This document shows, one piece after another, positions 4,178-32,008 of a DNA stretch of 32,147 nucleotides. The notes beneath the pieces are model-generated. The model saw nothing but the letters and a program-made list of their open reading frames with translations, did not search any database and was not told the DNA's origin. The stretch's first letter is position 1. Each line of letters begins with the position of its first letter. The stretch covers positions 1-32,147 of the forward strand of contig JAJZVN010000020.1 of NCBI GenBank assembly GCA_021845685.1. The letters are read 5' to 3'. This DNA is from a bacterium. GTDB taxonomy: Bacteria > SZUA-79 > Acidulodesulfobacterales > Acidulodesulfobacteraceae. The translations under genes and the position numbers were made by a program.

Positions 4178-4404
4178 TTAAATCACCGTTAGAAATTTCT
4201 TTTTCCGGATTCCTGCGTTGGCAGGAATGACTTTGCTAAGGTTTAAATTTTAACCTATTTGGTGTCATTCTTATTATATAATTTAATTATATATATTGCT
4301 TTCGAGTTTAAATTTTAACCTATTTGGTGTCATTCCCGCAAAAGCGGGAATCCAGTATTTATCATATTCTGAATCAGTTTTAATAATTTCTAACGGTGAT
4401 TTAA
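4178..4404. mobile_element. MITE-like element with 20-bp perfect terminal inverted repeats
   Basis: The left end TTAAATCACCGTTAGAAATT (4178-4197) is repeated exactly inverted at 4385-4404. The ends begin and finish with TTAA, which could be the target sequence. Inside are two outward hairpins, one around TTCCTGCGTTGGCAGGAA and one around ATTCCCGCAAAAGCGGGAAT, plus a direct repeat of GTTTAAATTTTAACCTATTT (near 4240 and 4309) leading into GGTGTCATTC. It has no coding capacity. Decayed relatives of the inner part occur near 9368-9446 and 31846-32008, so this is a dispersed family that would need a transposase from elsewhere. Confidence 0.8.
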
Positions 4405-9367: not shown

Positions 9368-9511
9368 TTCCTGCCTGCGCAGAAATGACTTTTAGAGATT
9401 TTATCCTTTCACCTATCTGGTGTCATTCCCGCAAAAACAGGAATCTAATGTTCCTTAATGCATTGATGTATACATTGATGTATATTCAACAATCTCAATC
9501 CGGCAATTTTG
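9368..9511. repeat. decayed copy of the dispersed MITE/REP family
   Basis: TTTCCTGCCTGCGCAGAAATGACTT followed by CACCTATCTGGTGTCATTCC and GCAAAAACAGGAATCT parallels the inner part of the 4178-4404 element, in the same orientation. CGGCAATTTTG at 9501-9511 matches the end sequence of the element at 31846-32008. The hairpins are degraded. Confidence 0.6.
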
Positions 9512-14335: not shown

Positions 14336-15802
14336 GTGATAGTTCTAGTTTTAACATTTTTAATTTTTGCAATTTTATACAGATTTATAAACATAAAGCT
14401 GACATTTTTAATTCAGCCCGTGATAACTTTTTTAATTTTATTATATGCTTTATTTCTTACTAATATCGTTCTTAAGCGCCAGATAATTTTCAGCTTTTAT
14501 AATCTTTTATTTTTAGATTCTTTAAATACTATTCTTATTATTATAATTACTTCGCTATCTTTTTTAGTTGCTATTTATTCTATTGGATACTTTAAAAAAG
14601 AATTAAAATCAGGACTGCCCGGAAAAAAAATAAAAGAATATTACTTCTGGATGAATTTTTTTATTTTTGCTATGCTTTTGCTTTCAATTTCAAACAATCT
14701 CGGTGTCTTATGGGTAGCAATTGAAGGAACTACGCTTGCAACTACTTTTCTCATCAGTTTTTACAGAAATAAAGAAGCGGTTGAAGCCGGCTGGAAATAT
14801 ATTATAATCTGCTCGGTAGGAATTGCTTTTGCTTTTTTTGGAATAGTGCTTTTATATTTTGCATCTTCAAGTTTTCTGGGAGAAAGTTTGAGCGCTCTTA
14901 ACTGGACTGATATGATGAAGGTTGCTCCTCATTTTAATAAACATATCCTAGATATTGCTTTTATTTTTGTTTTAGTCGGTTTCGGCACAAAAGTTGGTTT
15001 TGCTCCCTTTCATTTCTGGCTTCCGGATGCACATTCAGAGGCTCCGACACCTGTAAGCGCTTTAATGTCCGGAGTATTATTAAATTGCGCTTTATATGCC
15101 ATTATAAGAGTTTACGCTATTTTAAATATGGACGGTCAGGCATATTTTGCCAACGAACTTTTGATGTTTTTCGGATTGTTTACGGTATTTATCGCGGCTA
15201 TTTTTATAATCAAGCAAAATGATTACAAAAGGCTGCTGGCATATTCTTCAATGGAACATATGGGTATAATTGCTTTTGCTTTTAGTATAAGTACTCCCCT
15301 CGCTATATTTGCCGCAGTACTTGGAATGATAAATCATGCTTTTACTAAAAGCCTCATGTTTTTTTCAACGGGTTCTATACTTTCAAATTATCATACAAAG
15401 AAAATATCAGACATTAGAGGATTATTTAAAATTTTGCCCTTTACCGCAGTATTTATGATAATAGGAGTTTTGGCTATTACCGGAAATCCGCCGTTCAGCA
15501 TTTTTATAAGCGAATTTTTAACATTGATTGCTTCATTTAAAGCAAATTATGCTCCCGAAGGTATATTACTTTTAATTTTTTTAGTTGTTATATTTATTGG
15601 GTTTATCAGGCATTTTATTGGAATGGCTGCCGGAAAACCGACTCTTGAAAAGAAAAAAGAAAGTATTTATATGATTTTGCCGATGTTTTTAATTTTAATA
15701 GTTATATTGAGTTTTGGAATTTATATTCCCGTCGATTTTAAAATTTTAGTAAATAATATTGTGGTGATAGTTAAAGGAACTAATAACGGCAAGGGATTAT
15801 AG
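14336..15802 (+). CDS. HyfF-type membrane subunit (NuoN/NuoL-like)
   Basis: A 488-residue antiporter-like subunit, second in this cluster, homologous to HyfF. It contains the broken-helix region GFGTKVGFAPFHFWLPDAH, SEAPTPVSALMSGVLL, and LLAYSSMEHMGIIAFAF, with the conserved channel Lys and His. About 14 helices are visible. The start is GTG at 14336 with an AAGGA upstream; the protein begins directly in the first helix. Two antiporter-type subunits plus HyfE- and HyfC-type subunits imply a membrane arm able to move several ions per electron pair. The next Hyf-type gene does not begin until 18259, because the kinase cassette lies between. Confidence 0.9.
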   Translation: MIVLVLTFLIFAILYRFINIKLTFLIQPVITFLILLYALFLTNIVLKRQIIFSFYNLLFLDSLNTILIIIITSLSFLVAIYSIGYFKKELKSGLPGKKIKEYYFWMNFFIFAMLLLSISNNLGVLWVAIEGTTLATTFLISFYRNKEAVEAGWKYIIICSVGIAFAFFGIVLLYFASSSFLGESLSALNWTDMMKVAPHFNKHILDIAFIFVLVGFGTKVGFAPFHFWLPDAHSEAPTPVSALMSGVLLNCALYAIIRVYAILNMDGQAYFANELLMFFGLFTVFIAAIFIIKQNDYKRLLAYSSMEHMGIIAFAFSISTPLAIFAAVLGMINHAFTKSLMFFSTGSILSNYHTKKISDIRGLFKILPFTAVFMIIGVLAITGNPPFSIFISEFLTLIASFKANYAPEGILLLIFLVVIFIGFIRHFIGMAAGKPTLEKKKESIYMILPMFLILIVILSFGIYIPVDFKILVNNIVVIVKGTNNGKGL

Positions 15803-16067
15803 TATAGGATTATAGTATATATAATTGATTATAAAACAACTGATGTAATATTAAAAAATATTAAACTTTATCCTGCTATAGGATTTTATATTCTGGATGG
15901 CTGCCTATGCAGATGACTTTGAGCTCCTTTATCCTTATTCAGCTTACACACGCAATGGGAGAGGCAAAACAAGATATTACTCTCGGCATTGACAAAGAAG
16001 AAATTAAAGCTAAAAAGTTGTAGAAAGTTATAAATAATTTCTGCTATATAAAAACAGGGAGCTAAAA
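15803..16067. other. junction between hyfF-like gene and kinase cassette, with a possible 38-codon ORF
   Basis: Most of this 265-base junction is AT-rich, but composition becomes more balanced from about 15890. A small frame at 15907-16023 (ATG, 38 codons, ending KEEIKAKKL) fits that change. It has no clear Shine-Dalgarno and I do not recognise it; it may be the tail of a lost gene. A good AGGGAG site at the end of the gap belongs to the kinase gene. Confidence 0.3.
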
Positions 16068-16766
16068 ATGAGAGGATTTACGGATTATAATATTGATGTA
16101 GTTATAAAATTCGGCGGGAGCATACTTGCCGATAAGGATATGTGCCAGAAAACTATTAACTCGATAACCAGCTTAGTCGAAAACAGGTATAGAGTTATGG
16201 TTATTCCCGGCGGAGGACCCACGGATAATACAATAGAGGCTTTAGATAAAAAGCATCCCTTCAACCCCGATACCCACCATAAAGCCTGCGCGAGAGCGCA
16301 AGACCAGACTGGTCTTATGATTTCCGACCCTGTCTGGAACGGCAGGTTAACTCCGTGCGAAACCCTCTATGACGTAAGAAAAGCAAACGATAACGGGTTT
16401 GCGGGAGTGCTTCTCCCATCAAGGCTGATATTCGATTTGGATCCATTTGAACGGACGTGGGAAATTACGTCCGATGCCATGAGCGTATATTTCTCTTGGC
16501 TTGTAGGAGCAAGGCGCACTATTATCCTGACAAATGTTGACGGCATTTATTTGGATGGCGATATAAATAATCCAGATAAGTTCGTAAAAAGTATAACAGC
16601 GGGCGAACTCGAACTCTTAGGACATACTGCCGTCGATGTTTGCACTCCTGCGTTTCTTAAAGCCAAAAAAATGGATTGCTTTGTAATGAACGGACTCCGT
16701 TCGAAAACCATGCTTGATTTCTTAAGTGGCAAAGAAGCAATAGGAACTTTTATAAAAGGGGCATAA
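16068..16766 (+). CDS. amino-acid-kinase-fold protein (UMP kinase / MoSto / MfnE-like)
   Basis: This 232-residue protein has the amino acid kinase fold, whose members phosphorylate carboxyl, phosphate or alcohol groups with ATP, or in MoSto store molybdate. Visible motifs: VVIKFGGSIL (residues 11-20, Lys14 and the GG phosphate loop), VIPGGGPTDN (46-54), WEITSDAMS (131-139) and ILTNVDGIYLDG (153-164), plus the UMP-kinase/MoSto-like end VMNGL...GTFI. It lacks regulatory ACT or PUA domains. A strong AGGGAG Shine-Dalgarno precedes the ATG. Its stop overlaps the next start (TAATG), implying translational coupling with the NDPK-like gene. Base composition is visibly richer in G and C than the flanking Ehr-like genes, suggesting separate acquisition. 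The substrate is unknown; the partner suggests nucleotide or phospho-metabolite chemistry. Confidence 0.8.
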   Translation: MRGFTDYNIDVVIKFGGSILADKDMCQKTINSITSLVENRYRVMVIPGGGPTDNTIEALDKKHPFNPDTHHKACARAQDQTGLMISDPVWNGRLTPCETLYDVRKANDNGFAGVLLPSRLIFDLDPFERTWEITSDAMSVYFSWLVGARRTIILTNVDGIYLDGDINNPDKFVKSITAGELELLGHTAVDVCTPAFLKAKKMDCFVMNGLRSKTMLDFLSGKEAIGTFIKGA

Positions 16767-17926
16767 TGAATAACATTGCAAAAGAAAAAATAAAACAGTC
16801 TAAGCTCGGAATGCTTGTTTTTTCCCCAGACGCGATAAAGAGTAATTCGCCCGGAAGTATTATTTTTAAAATCAGAAAGGACATAGGATTAAATAATATC
16901 GGACAGCAATGGTTCCAGCACAGTGATAATTCTATTATAAAATTTTACCAGAACAGCATACCGGATAATGCCCCACATATTCATTTAATCCAGAAGCTCT
17001 TTACTTATTCCAAGGTTCTTGTAACATTCTGGAAAGGCGAAGATGTTTTTACTAAACTTCAGAAAATAAAAGGCGCAAGCCACCCTGCGGACGCTAAAGC
17101 AGGCACTATCAGAAGCAGTTTTTATTGCGATAACTCGATAACTAATTTAATACATGCAAGCGACAATGCCGATGAAATGCTGATGGAAATGGACGTGATG
17201 GGAATATCTGAAATACCCAGCACGATTTATCGAAACTCTGAAGTAAATGCCTATAGTTTTGAGCATAACGGCGGTTATCAGCTCTTAAAGGCGTTACAAC
17301 AGTATGTAAGACCGTTAGATAAAATTAAACGCAGTATGTTCTTTATCCCGCACGATAATATTCCGGCCGATGCGGACGCACGGAAAACTTTTAATGTTGT
17401 TTCAGGGATATTAAAAAAAATAGAAGTTGAAACCCAGGACGATACGGTAAAAATGGCGGTAAAATGCTTTTTTGAAAGCAAGGCATGCGAACTTGATAAT
17501 ATCCTGCTTAATAATCCCGGTATGGATGTAAGTCCATGGAGTAGGATAGTTATCCAAAGCGGTTCGGTTTGCATAGGTAAATGGCGCAGATTAAGAATAG
17601 ACGACGTAGTCCATAAATTAAAAACAATACTTGGGGATTCTAAATATTTAATAAGCGGTAGTTCAGCTTTGTATTTAAACGATATATCTGTAAAACCTAA
17701 TGATATTGATATATGGTGTGATGAGGATAATCTTGTTGAAATAAGCAAAAAACTTAATATAAAAATAATTAAAGACGAAAATCAATTTTATACGGCAAAT
17801 AAGGTTTTACTTAATATGGACGGTTGGGATATTGAGATAGTCGGCAATGTTTATCTTAAATCAGATAAACATCTTTTTATAGACGAGTTAATGCTGAAAA
17901 CATCAAAAAACAAGGTGGAATTATAA
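16766..17926 (+). CDS. NDP-kinase-like domain fused to a nucleotidyltransferase-like domain
   Basis: Residues about 13-145 resemble nucleoside diphosphate kinase: MLVFSPDAIKSN in place of the usual IKPDA strand, a middle WKGEDVFTKLQKIKGASHPADA, AGTIRSSF (Arg116), and NLIHASDNADE with His130 in the position of the phospho-histidine. The Lys of KPDA is Ser here, so activity may be changed. A linker of about 140 residues follows without a recognised motif. Residues 290-360 look like a DNA-polymerase-beta-type nucleotidyltransferase: SGSSALYL (297-304), NDIDIW with Asp313 and Asp315, and a later WDIEI carboxylate. At 386 residues it is far longer than normal NDPK (about 140-150). It is coupled to the amino-acid-kinase gene. 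Both domain calls are by motif only; the C-terminal one is less sure. Confidence 0.7.
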   Translation: MNNIAKEKIKQSKLGMLVFSPDAIKSNSPGSIIFKIRKDIGLNNIGQQWFQHSDNSIIKFYQNSIPDNAPHIHLIQKLFTYSKVLVTFWKGEDVFTKLQKIKGASHPADAKAGTIRSSFYCDNSITNLIHASDNADEMLMEMDVMGISEIPSTIYRNSEVNAYSFEHNGGYQLLKALQQYVRPLDKIKRSMFFIPHDNIPADADARKTFNVVSGILKKIEVETQDDTVKMAVKCFFESKACELDNILLNNPGMDVSPWSRIVIQSGSVCIGKWRRLRIDDVVHKLKTILGDSKYLISGSSALYLNDISVKPNDIDIWCDEDNLVEISKKLNIKIIKDENQFYTANKVLLNMDGWDIEIVGNVYLKSDKHLFIDELMLKTSKNKVEL

Positions 17927-17932
17927 AGCGTT

Positions 17933-18047
17933 TTCGGCATCCGCTTTTAAAATTTACCCTAAAGGTTCCCGTTTATTTACAGCGCGCAACGGCAAGCGCG
18001 TAAAAAAATGTCCGTGCCGTTAAAAATCTTTGGGGGTAAATGCCGAA
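17933..18047. ncRNA. candidate structured RNA with a pseudoknot
   Basis: Within a 331-base gap, complementary segments nest: TTCGGCA (17933-17939) with TGCCGAA (18041-18047), TTTACCC (17953-17959) with GGGTAAA (18034-18040), and a hairpin CGCGC (17983-17987) with GCGCG (17996-18000), extended by TTTA (17976-17979) with TAAA (18001-18004). The hairpin loop AACGGCA (17988-17994) matches TGCCGTT (18015-18021), making a possible 7-bp pseudoknot. It is much more GC-rich than its surroundings. The orientation is not certain, but plus fits the neighbours. I recognise no known riboswitch. There is no T-tract, so it is not a plain terminator. The remaining gap to 18258 is AT-rich. Confidence 0.45.
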
Positions 18048-18258
18048 TTGTGATACCACCACTGATAATTAAATAAATTTGTTCGGAGTTTATAAACAAA
18101 AATTTTAAAAAAAATAAAAAAAATTAAAACCGCCGGTAATAGAAAATATCAAGGTTTTAGGGATTAATAAAAGATAAAAATTAATTTATTTTTTCAGCAT
18201 CTCGGAAAAATCGTATATATAACAGGAATAAAAAAAATAAATAAAGAGGGCAGTAAAA

Positions 18259-19980
18259 ATGAAAAATAAATTAGATTTTATTCAAAATTTAGATAAAGAT
18301 ATTAAGGAAGCCGTAACGGAAAATTTTTATAATCAGGATAATGAACTTGTTTTAAAAATAAACTTGAAAGATTTAAAAAAAATATGTCTGTATTTTTTTA
18401 AAGATTTAAAATTTTATTTGTTATCAGCTTTTGCAGTCGATGAAAGTAAGAATGACGGCAATAAATTTAAAATAAGATATATTTTTTCTCATTCATCTAT
18501 AGATTTGTTCATAATTATTGAAACGGAGACGAGTGGGACATTTCCGTCTTTATCGGAAGAAATACCGGCTTTAAACTGGTACGAAAGAGAGATGAAAGAT
18601 TTATTCGGATTAATTCCGGAAGGACATCCTGACCCCAGACCGCTCATGCTGTTTCCTGAAAATTATCCGCAGGATATTCAAAATATGCATCCTCTAAGGA
18701 AAGACTATCCGTTTAATTTCAGACCGGAATTCAAAAAATACGGCGAATATAATTATAATAAAGACGTTAAAGGAGTCGGGGTTTTTAATATATTAGTCGG
18801 ACCTGTTCATGCAGGTATCATTGAACCGGGGCATTTTAGATTCAGCATGTCGGGAGAACCGATACTGCAATTGGAAATAAGGCATTTTTGGAAGCATAGA
18901 GGGATAGAAAAAATTGCCGAAGGGAAAACAATATATGAGGCATTATCTTTAGCCGAAAAAATATCTGGAGACCATTGTGTAGCCCATTCTTTAGCCTTTT
19001 TGGCGGCAGCCGAAAAGATTTTAAATATAAAAATTCCTGAAAACGTATTATATATAAGAACTATTTACGCCGAATTAGAAAGATTATTGTGTAATATCAA
19101 TGATTTTGCTTGGCTGTTTCAGGATGCGGGGTACAGTTTCGGCGCTCAGGAAACTTTTGTGTTAAAAGAAGATATTATGGAATTAAACAAATATTTGTCC
19201 GGAAGCAGATTTAATAAAGGCATCTTATCTCTTGGGGGAATAAATACCTGCGGGAATATTGATAACTTGAGAAAAAATGTTTTGAAGGAAAAATTATCTG
19301 ATTTTAGCAAACGTTATCTGAATTTAAAAAAAATGCTTTTAAATTCATCAACTATAGGCGAAAGGTTTGAAGAAACAGGATATATAAACAAAGAAACTAT
19401 TTTAGATTTATGCGCTTTGGGTTTCGCGGCAAGAGCATCGGGAGTGCCGTCAGACACTAGAAAAGAACATCCTTACCTGATTTATGATAAATTGCATTTT
19501 AACTCAAAAGTTTTAAAAAACAGAGATGTTTTTGCAAGGCTTTTAATAAGATTTTACGACATAGAAGAAAGTTTTTCAATTATAACGCAGTGTTTAAACG
19601 AACTGCCGGCAGAGGATATAAATAAAGCAGGCGGAGAGTACGCTGATAATAATGTTAATAATACAGGCGATAATATAAGTAAAAATAAAAGCAAAAATGA
19701 CCGCTGTATTATAGCTAAGAATGATAAAATAGACGCAGCTCAACAGTTATCAACTGATAGTTTACGCTCATGGGCATTAGGCTATTGCGAAAGCCAGAGG
19801 GGCAATATCATTCATTTTGTTAAACTTGATGAAAAATCAAGAATTTCAAGGTGGAAAATAAGAGACCCTTCTTTTCATAATTGGCAATTAATAGAATTTG
19901 CGGTTATAGGAGATATAATAGCCGATTTTCCAATAGTAAATAAAAGTTTAAATCTAAGCTATGCCGGAAATGATTTATAA
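18259..19980 (+). CDS. HyfG/NuoCD-type large subunit without Ni-Fe ligands (Ehr-type)
   Basis: A 573-residue fusion of a NuoC-like domain (residues 1-155, with ALNWYEREMKDLFGL and HPLRKDYPF) and a NuoD/hydrogenase-large-subunit domain (175-573, with GPVHAGIIEPGHFRF and IRHFWKHRGIEK). In [NiFe] hydrogenases the metal site is held by CxxC near the start of this domain and CxxC at the C-terminus. Here the first site reads SGDHCVAHS (Ser236, His239) and the last reads SLNLSYAGNDL (Ser567, Gly570), so all four ligands are gone and the protein ends where the second motif would lie. This matches Ehr complexes, not active hydrogenases. An Asn/Lys-rich insert lies near 455-495. A GAGGG Shine-Dalgarno supports the start. 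What it oxidises or reduces is unknown. Confidence 0.9.
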   Translation: MKNKLDFIQNLDKDIKEAVTENFYNQDNELVLKINLKDLKKICLYFFKDLKFYLLSAFAVDESKNDGNKFKIRYIFSHSSIDLFIIIETETSGTFPSLSEEIPALNWYEREMKDLFGLIPEGHPDPRPLMLFPENYPQDIQNMHPLRKDYPFNFRPEFKKYGEYNYNKDVKGVGVFNILVGPVHAGIIEPGHFRFSMSGEPILQLEIRHFWKHRGIEKIAEGKTIYEALSLAEKISGDHCVAHSLAFLAAAEKILNIKIPENVLYIRTIYAELERLLCNINDFAWLFQDAGYSFGAQETFVLKEDIMELNKYLSGSRFNKGILSLGGINTCGNIDNLRKNVLKEKLSDFSKRYLNLKKMLLNSSTIGERFEETGYINKETILDLCALGFAARASGVPSDTRKEHPYLIYDKLHFNSKVLKNRDVFARLLIRFYDIEESFSIITQCLNELPAEDINKAGGEYADNNVNNTGDNISKNKSKNDRCIIAKNDKIDAAQQLSTDSLRSWALGYCESQRGNIIHFVKLDEKSRISRWKIRDPSFHNWQLIEFAVIGDIIADFPIVNKSLNLSYAGNDL

Positions 19981-20653: not shown

Positions 20654-21922
20654 ATGGAGCTAATTAAAAGAAATATATATAAAGACCTGCTTTCCCACGC
20701 TGAAAAAAAAGAGATTTCGCTTCTCACAGGTCCAAGACAATCCGGCAAAACAACTTTAATGAATTTAATGAAGTCCGAGCTTGAAAAAGACGGAAAGCAC
20801 ACACTGTTTTTAAATTTGGACAGCGAAATGGATAAAAATTATTTTTCTTCGCAGCAGATGTTATTAAAAAAAATAGAACTGGAATTTGGAGATAAAAAGG
20901 GTTATATATTTATAGACGAGATTCAGAGAAAAAACGATGCGGGTATTTTTTTAAAGGGATTATACGATATGAATCTGCCCCATAAATTTATCGTTTCCGG
21001 TTCAGGCAGTCTTGAATTAAAAGAAAAAATTCATGAGTCTTTAGTTGGCAGAAAAAGAATATTTGAGTTAGGTACGGTTTCTTTTGATGAATTCGTAAAT
21101 TTTAAAACAAATTATAAATATAAAGATGAATTGTCAGCTTTTTTTGAATTAGAACATGAATTAATAAATATTTATTTGATGGAATATCTTAATTTTGGAG
21201 GCTATCCCAGGGTTATTTTAGAAAAAGAACAAAGGGAGAAAATTTTTATTATAAATGATATTTTTCACAGTTATTTAGAAAAAGACATTTCTTATTTATT
21301 AAAAGTAGAAAGAGTAGATGCATTTTCCGACTTGATAAAAATTATTTCAGGCAGATTTGGGAGCCTTACAAATTATTCTAATATCGCTTCTGAAATAAAT
21401 ATTTCCGTTCAAACTTTAAAAAATTATCTTTTTTATGCTGAAAAAACATTTATTTTGCAAAAATTGACGCCTTATTTTAAAAATTCTTCAAAAGAAATCG
21501 TAAAATCCCCCGTTTATTATTTTTACGATATCGGTTTAAGAAATTTTAGTATAAATTTATTCGGTAATATTACAGATTTTGGACATGTTTTTGAAAATTT
21601 AGTTTTAAATATTATTAAAGAAAAAATTAAATTTACCAACGGAAGTATTCATTTCTGGAGAACATTAGATAAAGCAGAGGTTGATTTTGTTTTAGATTTC
21701 GGTAAAGAAATTATCCCTATAGAAGTTAAATATAAAAAATATAAATTGCCGAAATTAGAAGCATCGCTAAGAAGTTTTATAGACAAATATGCGCCTAAGA
21801 AGGCATTTGTAGTAAACTTAGAATTAAATGCCATGTTAAATGTTAATAATACAAATGTTTATTTTATTTCGTTCGGCGAATTGTTTAAATTAAAAAGCCC
21901 CATTGCTGCATTGAATATATAG
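20654..21922 (+). CDS. AAA ATPase with DUF4143 C-terminal domain
   Basis: A 422-residue protein of the AAA_14/DUF4143 group, widespread ATPases of unsettled role, many in accessory DNA. Walker A is GPRQSGKTT (residues 26-34), Walker B is YIFIDEIQ (84-91) and a sensor-like FIVSGSGS follows. A helix-turn-helix-like part (ASEINISVQTLKNYL) sits mid-protein. The C-terminus WRTLDKAEVDFVLDFGKEI with PIEVKYK resembles a PD-(D/E)XK nuclease-like core. It begins 60 bases after the HyfI-type gene. A TTGACT box with TAAAAT 16 bases later ends only six bases before the ATG, so its message could be leaderless. Confidence 0.87.
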   Translation: MELIKRNIYKDLLSHAEKKEISLLTGPRQSGKTTLMNLMKSELEKDGKHTLFLNLDSEMDKNYFSSQQMLLKKIELEFGDKKGYIFIDEIQRKNDAGIFLKGLYDMNLPHKFIVSGSGSLELKEKIHESLVGRKRIFELGTVSFDEFVNFKTNYKYKDELSAFFELEHELINIYLMEYLNFGGYPRVILEKEQREKIFIINDIFHSYLEKDISYLLKVERVDAFSDLIKIISGRFGSLTNYSNIASEINISVQTLKNYLFYAEKTFILQKLTPYFKNSSKEIVKSPVYYFYDIGLRNFSINLFGNITDFGHVFENLVLNIIKEKIKFTNGSIHFWRTLDKAEVDFVLDFGKEIIPIEVKYKKYKLPKLEASLRSFIDKYAPKKAFVVNLELNAMLNVNNTNVYFISFGELFKLKSPIAALNI

Positions 21923-23659: not shown

Positions 23660-23710
23660 TATATAATAATGCAATTTGAAAGTTTAACTTGCAAATTGCA
23701 TTATTATATA
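23660..23710. repeat. 19-bp perfect inverted repeat upstream of the second DUF4143 ATPase
   Basis: TATATAATAATGCAATTTG (23660-23678) pairs exactly with 23692-23710 around a 13-base loop that itself contains AAGT/ACTT. It starts six bases after the HyfI-tail stop and ends 20 bases before the ATPase ATG, so it could be an operator, a hairpin in the leader or the end of an inserted segment. Confidence 0.7.
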
Positions 23711-23730
23711 ATATAGTTTATAATATTATT

Positions 23731-24900
23731 ATGATAAAGAGAATAATAGAAGATGTTTTAAAAAATCTTGCAAATCAATATCCCGTCGTTACTATAACAG
23801 GTCCGCGGCAAAGCGGAAAAACTACGTTAATAAGAAACGTCTTTGCGAATAAGCAATATGTAAATCTTGAATCACCGGATATAAGGCAGTTTGCCGTTAA
23901 CGATCCGAAAGGTTTTTTAGCTCAGTATAATAATGCAATTTTAGATGAGATTCAGCGCGCTCCCGAATTACTTTCTTATATTCAACCGATTGTGGATGAA
24001 AATAAGGAGCAGGGGCAGTTCATTATTACCGGAAGCCAACAATTTGAGGTTTTAAACAATATATCCCAATCTCTTGCAGGCAGAACCGCTTTGCTTAAAT
24101 TACTTCCGTTTAGTATTTCGGAAATAAAAAATATTGTCGACGTATCGTTAACGAATAAGCTTATTTATACGGGCTTTTATCCAAGAATTTATGATATGAA
24201 TTTAGATCCGCATCAAGCAATAGGAGATTATATCGTAACATATGTTGAACGGGATATAAGGCAGCTTATTTCTATTAAAGATTTAAATCTTTTTGAAAAG
24301 TTTCTTAAATTGTGTGCGGGAAGAATAGGACAATTATTAAATTTCCAGGGATTAGCTAACGACGTCGGAGTATCCCATACAACTGTCAAATCATGGATTT
24401 CAATACTTGAAGCAAGTTATATAATTTTTTTATTGCCCCCATGGTATAATAATTTTTCAAAAAGATTGGTAAAATCGCCTAAATTATATTTTTACGACGT
24501 AGGACTTGCTTCTTATTTACTTGGAATAGAAAATGAAAAGCAGGTATTTCGCGACCCTTTAAGAGGCAATTTATTTGAAAATTTAGTTGTAGCCGAAGTT
24601 TTGAAATATAGATTTAATAAAGGCAAAAAAAGTAATTTATTTTTTTATAGAGATAGCACGGGTTTGGAAATAGATTTAATTTACGAGACAGGCAGGAATA
24701 TTTATCCTATTGAAATAAAATCAGGCGCAACGATATCCGAAGATTTCTTTAAAAATCTCAAAAAATTCATTAAATTTGATGGGTTAGACATTCCTTACGG
24801 CGGCGCTATATTTTACGGCGGCAATGAAATACAAGAAAGAACGGATTTTAAAATTTATCCTGTTTCAAAAACAACCGAATTGCTTAATTCTATTCCTTGA
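23731..24900 (+). CDS. AAA ATPase with DUF4143 C-terminal domain (second copy)
   Basis: A 389-residue paralogue of the ATPase at 20654, but clearly diverged. Walker A is GPRQSGKTTL and Walker B AILDEIQRAPEL; FIITGSQQFEVL follows as a sensor-like segment and AGRTALLKLLPFS is the family hallmark. A helix-turn-helix-like VGVSHTTVKSWISIL lies in the middle, and the C-terminal YRDSTGLEIDLIYE and PIEIKSG resemble a PD-(D/E)XK core. The ATG at 23731 fits the family start; a longer TTG start runs through the hairpin and is unlikely. Its function is unsettled, as for the family. Confidence 0.88.
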   Translation: MIKRIIEDVLKNLANQYPVVTITGPRQSGKTTLIRNVFANKQYVNLESPDIRQFAVNDPKGFLAQYNNAILDEIQRAPELLSYIQPIVDENKEQGQFIITGSQQFEVLNNISQSLAGRTALLKLLPFSISEIKNIVDVSLTNKLIYTGFYPRIYDMNLDPHQAIGDYIVTYVERDIRQLISIKDLNLFEKFLKLCAGRIGQLLNFQGLANDVGVSHTTVKSWISILEASYIIFLLPPWYNNFSKRLVKSPKLYFYDVGLASYLLGIENEKQVFRDPLRGNLFENLVVAEVLKYRFNKGKKSNLFFYRDSTGLEIDLIYETGRNIYPIEIKSGATISEDFFKNLKKFIKFDGLDIPYGGAIFYGGNEIQERTDFKIYPVSKTTELLNSIP

Positions 24901-31845: not shown

Positions 31846-32008
31846 TCAAAATTGCCGATAGAGATTTTAAAATTGCTTCAAAGTGTTATAAATACTGGAT
31901 TATAGCTTTAGCGGGAATGACACCTGTTGGGTGAAAACTTAAAAATCTACAAAGTTATCCCAGCTAAAGCGGAAATCCAGAAAAATAATTTTCTATCGGC
32001 AATTTTGA
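31846..32008. mobile_element. 163-bp MITE-like palindromic element
   Basis: The ends TCAAAATTGCCGATAG (31846-31861) and CTATCGGCAATTTTGA (31993-32008) are perfect 16-bp inverted repeats. Inside, CTGGATTATAGCTTTAGCGG pairs imperfectly with the CTAAAGCGGAAATCCAG region, so the whole could fold into one long hairpin. It shares the outer hairpin theme (GGGAATGACACC) with the 4178-4404 element. It has no coding capacity. It lies against the broken RelE gene. Confidence 0.75.

Follow-up and report, generated by a model that had tools for sequence, protein, structure and literature searches.

Why should a kinase gene and a gene for a nucleoside diphosphate kinase (NDPK)-like protein lie between two subunit genes of an Ehr-like cluster? 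The window, by which we mean the whole stretch of 32,147 nucleotides analysed, contains both open reading frames, gene 1 at 16068-16766 (232 aa) and gene 2 at 16766-17926 (386 aa), and at their junction, TAATG, the stop and start codons overlap. The original prediction had described two translationally coupled genes between a hyfF-like and a hyfG-like gene, and the coordinates, the overlap and the flanks are all borne out. The host, an uncultured bacterium from a phylum with a single family, is probably a member of the acid-mine-drainage lineage SZUA-79 / Acidulodesulfobacterales. We give about an even chance to the explanation that the pair came in by horizontal transfer from a rare operon of natural-product type, has since been partly eroded, and is functionally unrelated to the Ehr complex that it interrupts. 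The features of the locus are as follows, with G000 denoting the window's own genome and G005 a sister genome.

14336 to 15802, plus strand: hyfF-like antiporter subunit of the Ehr-like cluster, left flank, outside the cassette
15891 to 15932, no strand: palindromic repeat of which the left half remains, marking the left edge of the insert
15913 to 16022, plus strand: short open frame of 36 aa that arrived with the insert, in G005 too
16068 to 16766, plus strand: gene 1, amino-acid-kinase-fold kinase of a distinct clade near MfnE
16766 to 17926, plus strand: gene 2, fused NDPK-like / linker / putative nucleotidyltransferase protein of 386 aa
16814 to 17197, plus strand: NDPK-like domain, gene 2 residues 17-144
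17594 to 17923, plus strand: putative nucleotidyltransferase domain, gene 2 residues 277-386, with the GSS...NDIDI motif and a later acidic residue (WDIEIV)
17927 to 18258, no strand: AT-rich spacer with an imperfect inverted repeat of ~115 nt (about 17933-18047), in G000 and G005 only of the genomes checked
18259 to 19980, plus strand: hyfG-like (NuoCD-like) subunit of the Ehr-like cluster, right flank, outside the cassette

The site is empty in four congeners (G002, G003, G004 and G006), in which hyfF and hyfG are directly adjacent. The flanking genes of G002 are 96-98% identical to those of the window and are separated by a spacer of ~280 bp with a complete palindromic repeat, which reads ...CTGGATGACTGCC...GTCATTCCCGCGTAGGCGGGAATCCAG... 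Of this repeat the window has kept the left half alone; the right half GTCATTCCCGCGTAGGCGGGAATCCAG, intact in G002, has been replaced, and homology with G002 stops at 15932 and restarts at the hyfG start codon at 18259. The hyfF-hyfG spacers of G003, G004 and G006 are short and hold none of the cassette genes. The insert is shared with G005 only, at 97-98% identity, and there gene 2 is deleted beyond its first ~28 codons. Because the site is empty in the congeners and gene 2 has been deleted in G005, the insert is evidently young relative to the genus, with decay already begun in one of its two carriers.

Base composition was compared with a background of 83 genes from 124 kb of the host genome. 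The kinase (GC 0.435, GC3 0.431) exceeds every one of them (z = 2.8 and 3.6), gene 2 is a weaker outlier (GC 0.352, GC3 0.342; GC3 z 2.0), and the nucleotidyltransferase part of gene 2, at GC 0.279, is AT-rich like the genome. The expectation that the cassette differs in composition from its flanks thus holds for the kinase, less clearly for gene 2 and not for its nucleotidyltransferase part; that the cassette was inserted is confirmed by the four empty sites. To judge from these comparisons, the gene pair is a foreign insert.

The 36-aa frame at the left edge of the insert (MTLSSFILIQLTHAMGEAKQDITLGIDKEEIKAKKL) resembles the tail of a lost gene and occurs, among the loci compared, in G000 and G005 only. 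At the other end, the AT-rich spacer abuts the hyfG start codon, and its inverted repeat, just past gene 2, pairs TTCGGCAT...TTTACCC with GGGGGTAAATGCCGAA. We considered this repeat as an RNA or a mobile element and dropped both ideas, as no second copy was found in the five genomes searched, Rfam gave no match and the fold is unexceptional (z -1.47). Palindromes of the form GTCATTCCCGC-N4-GCGGGAATCCA, resembling dRS3-type repeats, are dispersed over the window at 4206-4231, 4329-4354, 9422-9447 and 31896-31921 (up to 3 mismatches allowed; 0 expected by chance), and another copy occupies the empty hyfF-hyfG site of G002, at the spot where the window has the cassette. Near the end of the Ehr-like cluster lie two ATPases with a DUF4143-type look (20654-21922 and 23689-24900); G005 has the second only, right behind its hyfI-like gene, which suggests another hot spot of insertion or deletion. 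The hyfG-like gene of G004 (L036) and G003 (L037) matches in pieces with internal stops, so that in some members of the genus the Ehr-like cluster itself may be falling into decay.

What could the two proteins do? Gene 1 passes the Pfam threshold for AA_kinase (PF00696; 4.7e-18, 66.2 bits against a gathering score of 24.9). Its best NCBIfam match is MfnE, the [5-(aminomethyl)furan-3-yl]methyl phosphate kinase (NF040622; 4.3e-34), whose cut-off of 300 bits it misses with 118.1 bits; in the PDB it matches 7qrh best, an entry named aspartate/glutamate/uridylate kinase. UMP kinases, isopentenyl phosphate kinases and acetylglutamate kinases rank next in a profile search of the PDB. UMP kinases and isopentenyl phosphate kinases transfer the phosphoryl group to an acceptor that is itself a phosphate group, and since these relatives act on phosphate, the acceptor of gene 1 is most likely a phosphate- or phosphonate-bearing substrate.

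Residues 17-144 of gene 2 pass the Pfam threshold for NDK (PF00334; 3.1e-16, 59.9 bits against a gathering score of 27), and the domain stays below the NCBIfam equivalog cut-off (58.8 bits against 155). The catalytic His130, within NLIHASD (NxxHxSD motif), is invariant in 6/6 sequences, and Arg116, Asn127, Tyr61 and Glu141 are kept as the counterparts of the canonical Arg105, Asn115, Tyr52 and Glu129. The canonical Lys12 of the KPD motif, which contacts the nucleotide, is replaced by Ser20 in the window (SPD), relatives having GPE or SPE, and the position matching Arg88 seems to be changed too. Retention of His130 together with the change of nucleotide-contacting residues suggests that the NDPK-like domain performs phosphotransfer on a substrate other than the usual one. 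An ordinary ndk is present elsewhere in the host genome.

For the C-terminal part of gene 2, Pfam returns DUF7277 and DUF6036, both below cut-off. A three-homologue profile of this region hits TM1012, a putative nucleotidyltransferase of known structure (2ewr, 4hx0), with E ~5e-7, and the region contains a complete GS/DxD motif (GSS...NDIDI) and a later acidic residue (WDIEIV); we regard it as a putative nucleotidyltransferase domain of the Pol-beta-type, TM1012-like kind. Both Pfam families and the TM1012 profile match agree with the kinase-fold protein and the NDPK-like/nucleotidyltransferase-like protein originally predicted. AlphaFold, for which two sequences were usable as input, gave mean pLDDT values of 44 and 37 for the two proteins, too low for the models to be of use.

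A longer form of the unit occurs in G022 (JAKAOK010000018.1), a genome of another genus in the same family, with protein identities of 84% for the kinase and 80% for gene 2. This pair lies outside any Ehr cluster and adjoins glycine-cleavage genes. The gene order is kinase, fused NDPK-nucleotidyltransferase (442 aa) and class III aminotransferase (406 aa), the last beginning directly after the stop codon of gene 2. The window and G022 are homologous from the kinase start codon as far as window position 17908. Set against the 442 aa of the G022 homologue (L021), gene 2 of the window, at 386 aa, has lost its C-terminal ~56 residues. The window copy is therefore without the end of the nucleotidyltransferase and without the aminotransferase, of which no orthologue was found in G000, G005 or G002, only paralogues of 24-38% identity. 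On this comparison, the window copy is evidently a truncated piece of a longer unit. The pathway first proposed, in which a small molecule is phosphorylated and a nucleotide then activated or transferred, stands as regards the pair but not as a complete two-gene pathway, since elsewhere the operon is longer and includes a class III aminotransferase.

The pair also travels together in unrelated bacteria. Kinases of at least 37% identity occur on 13 plasmid records, from Rhizobium, Sinorhizobium, Neorhizobium, Roseibium and Acinetobacter, and every one of the 13 carries a long NDPK. In the rhizobial and Roseibium records the kinase is followed by the NDPK and usually by a small protein encoded on its own (~180 aa), which bears a GSS...PNDIDI motif. 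For this rhizobial gene, the nine best matches all fall within plasmid records that have the kinase and the long NDPK; with the fused domain it has the catalytic motif alone in common (hhalign probability 9.6%). On two Acinetobacter plasmids the NDPK and nucleotidyltransferase form one fused protein, like gene 2 of the window, which is encoded 4.4 kb away from the kinase and on the opposite strand. A second group comprises eight more rhizobial kinases, at 33-36% identity, and in the three loci of this group that were read (R. jaguaris, CIAT899 and CB3090) an NDPK was not detected.

The plasmid loci of Sinorhizobium garamanticum, Rhizobium CB782 and Roseibium have one gene order in common: the kinase comes first, then the NDPK and the nucleotidyltransferase-like gene, and after these a class III aminotransferase, a small protein and a GMC oxidoreductase. 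In S. garamanticum and Rhizobium CB782 this aminotransferase is fused with a methyltransferase. Its identity to the G022 aminotransferase is only ~27%, and the latter may have been recruited independently. S. garamanticum, S. numidicum, Roseibium and Neorhizobium also have a DegT aminotransferase just upstream, the Neorhizobium one in pieces, and a DegT relative is present in the Acinetobacter cluster. Several rhizobial copies are frameshifted or trimmed.

Loci L068 and L070 have a methyltransferase domain followed by a fused HemL-like class III aminotransferase; in L065, L092 and L093 the methyltransferase part alone remains and the aminotransferase part is gone. On the Acinetobacter plasmid L066 (1-17000), two D-Ala-D-Ala ligases, a dTMP-kinase-like gene and a split transketolase surround the kinase and NDPK, and an AMP-binding enzyme and an acyl carrier protein are also found there. 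The extra D-Ala-D-Ala ligase could serve self-resistance and so hint at the target of the product.

The gene pair is rare. The 386 genomes centred on the window yielded G000, G005 and G022, plus five further kinases that are MfnE-like or have lower scores. No kinase reached the E 1e-30 threshold in 399 sampled Pseudomonadota, a set without a positive genome, so that this empty result proves little. Long-frame NDPKs in the distant genomes G045, G051, G055 and G056 are not NDPK-nucleotidyltransferase fusions. On the 13 plasmids, as in G022, the two genes keep each other's company independently of Ehr clusters, contrary to what would have refuted the original prediction, their occurring apart everywhere, and no homologue with a known housekeeping function turned up, the host's own ndk sitting elsewhere.

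The operon contexts, with their aminotransferases, methyltransferase and GMC oxidoreductase, fit a natural-product operon better, judged by gene content alone, than the cofactor or signalling pathway that the original prediction had envisaged. The pair is most likely the phospho-activation module of an undescribed natural-product operon. In such an operon, the aminotransferase would make an amino compound bearing a phosphate or phosphonate, and the MfnE-like kinase would put a second phosphoryl group onto that phosph(on)ate. The NDPK-like domain would then move a further phosphoryl group on or off a non-nucleotide substrate, and the nucleotidyltransferase domain would attach a nucleotide, so that the compound ends up either as an activated intermediate or masked and non-toxic. 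We infer the order of these steps from family chemistry only. In the host, the pair may provide a residual detoxifying or modifying step, or may be heading to loss like gene 2 of G005.

More broadly, and with somewhat less than even confidence, we propose that such biosynthetic operons form a new class. In them, the joint work of an MfnE-like kinase, an NDPK-like histidine phosphotransferase and a nucleotidyltransferase would yield a small molecule, perhaps a phosphonate, that is an oligophosphate or carries an activating nucleotidyl group, and the operon would be shared horizontally among rhizobial symbiosis plasmids, Acinetobacter and a candidate phylum. If this is true, the NDPK fold would have a new activity, on a metabolite that is not a nucleotide, and would have been recruited to secondary metabolism jointly with an MfnE-like kinase. 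It would also mean an undescribed natural-product family, partly encoded on the symbiosis plasmids of root-nodule bacteria, and the combination of kinase, long NDPK and nucleotidyltransferase would be a three-domain sequence hook for finding such operons.

Could the cassette instead be a functionless relic in its present host, on its way to being lost? We consider this possible, though rather unlikely. Gene 2 is ~56 aa short, the third gene is missing, the sister genome has already deleted gene 2, and several rhizobial copies have decayed too. On the other hand, both frames are open with their motifs intact, and dN/dS is low: the G000 and G022 copies give 0.07 (kinase) and 0.13 (gene 2), the G000 and G005 kinases 0.075. 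These values indicate that both genes were constrained for most of their history, a constraint that could predate a loss of function. Whatever its activity now, the locus is a clear instance, at the level of the genome, of accessory genes that settled between subunit genes for a respiratory-type complex and afterwards began to decay.

The natural-product explanation also has a narrower version, which does not exclude it: the module would serve C-P (phosphonate) natural products specifically. The kinase would then phosphorylate a phosphonate in the way FomA does fosfomycin, the NDPK-like domain would add the next phosphate like FomB, and the nucleotidyltransferase would form a nucleotidyl-phosphonate, which in this host would amount to a stray self-protection or detoxification step. 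PEP-mutase-family genes do lie ~0.2-2.1 kb from the kinase in six rhizobial loci, and the PEP mutase of R. jaguaris scores above the TIGR02320 cut-off with its EDKLFPKRNS motif intact. A phosphonate cluster with an NDPK and a nucleotidyltransferase gene is also known, that of argolaphos (PMC8976061). However, 108 plasmid records, most of them rhizobial or agrobacterial, carry aepX-like genes, and mostly without the kinase; because they are so common on rhizobial plasmids, we downgraded the proximity of PEP mutase to weak evidence. Several of the nearby rhizobial mutases have an altered EDK motif (EGN, DGK or DDK), and the more distant kinase loci of R. jaguaris, CIAT899 and CB3090 are the ones in which no NDPK was detected. 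PEP mutase was not found near the Sinorhizobium, Roseibium, Neorhizobium, CB782, Acinetobacter and G022 copies, and is absent genome-wide from G000, G005, G002 and G022. Finally, no FomA structure is named among the PDB matches of the kinase profile up to E 0.01. Restriction to phosphonates is therefore doubtful in our view.

A kinase next to a nucleotidyltransferase, sporadically distributed, might alternatively form a defence, toxin-antitoxin or nucleotide-signalling unit, and the nucleotidyltransferase superfamily includes toxins of toxin-antitoxin pairs. This is very unlikely, given that PADLOC gave no model match up to E 1 and PHROGs no match, that neither a relative on a viral contig nor a phage record with the kinase was found, and that the neighbours in other genomes are biosynthetic enzymes. 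A defence or phage origin is thus unsupported.

A role of gene 1 as MfnE itself, in methanofuran or methylofuran synthesis, is more improbable still. MfnE has been assigned to the F1-pyrophosphate intermediate of methanofuran synthesis (PMC8141765). It is the best NCBIfam match of gene 1, and the PDB match to 7qrh points the same way, but the score falls far short of the family cut-off. Moreover, MfnB (PF04476) is absent from G000, G005, G002 and G022, and was detected in G126 and G253, two distant genomes with MfnE-like kinases that served as positive controls; without MfnB, methanofuran synthesis is excluded in the host. To the idea that the pair modifies or matures the Ehr-like complex, suggested by its location between the hyfF and hyfG genes, which G000 and G005 alone show, we assign next to no probability and reject it, since the distribution contradicts it: the genes are missing from the Ehr clusters of G002, G003, G004 and G006 and lie outside Ehr in G022 and on plasmids, so that the link is, as had been foreseen, only positional.

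How does the proposed phospho-activation module compare with known systems? With nucleoside diphosphate kinase (PF00334) gene 2 shares His130, Arg116, Asn127, Tyr61 and Glu141; it differs in that Lys12 is exchanged for Ser or Gly and in being joined to extra domains by fusion or linkage. The C-terminus resembles TM1012 (2ewr, 4hx0) in its profile match and its GS and DxD motifs, but sits behind an NDPK-like domain, and the window copy is short by the last ~56 residues. Gene 1 has in common with MfnE the amino-acid-kinase fold, the glycine-rich start and the TSD and VDG motifs, and is set apart by its own motif HHxACAxAQDQTG, by its NDPK-nucleotidyltransferase partner and by a host without MfnB. 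The fosfomycin kinases FomA and FomB carry out successive phosphorylations, beginning with an amino-acid-kinase-fold enzyme. Only this idea of two phosphorylations in succession, the amino-acid-kinase-fold enzyme first, is shared with them, whereas the second enzyme here is NDPK-like and the kinase profile has no FomA match in the PDB. The argolaphos (alp) cluster, a phosphonate cluster that has been heterologously expressed, encodes AlpE, an NDPK of 291 aa, and AlpM, a nucleotidyltransferase proposed to activate the phosphonate with CMP to CMP-phosphonate (PMC8976061). Compared by description, not by sequence, it resembles the cassette in combining an NDPK of unusual length with a nucleotidyltransferase, but no amino-acid-kinase gene is listed for it, its NDPK and nucleotidyltransferase are separate proteins, and it has a PEP mutase of its own.
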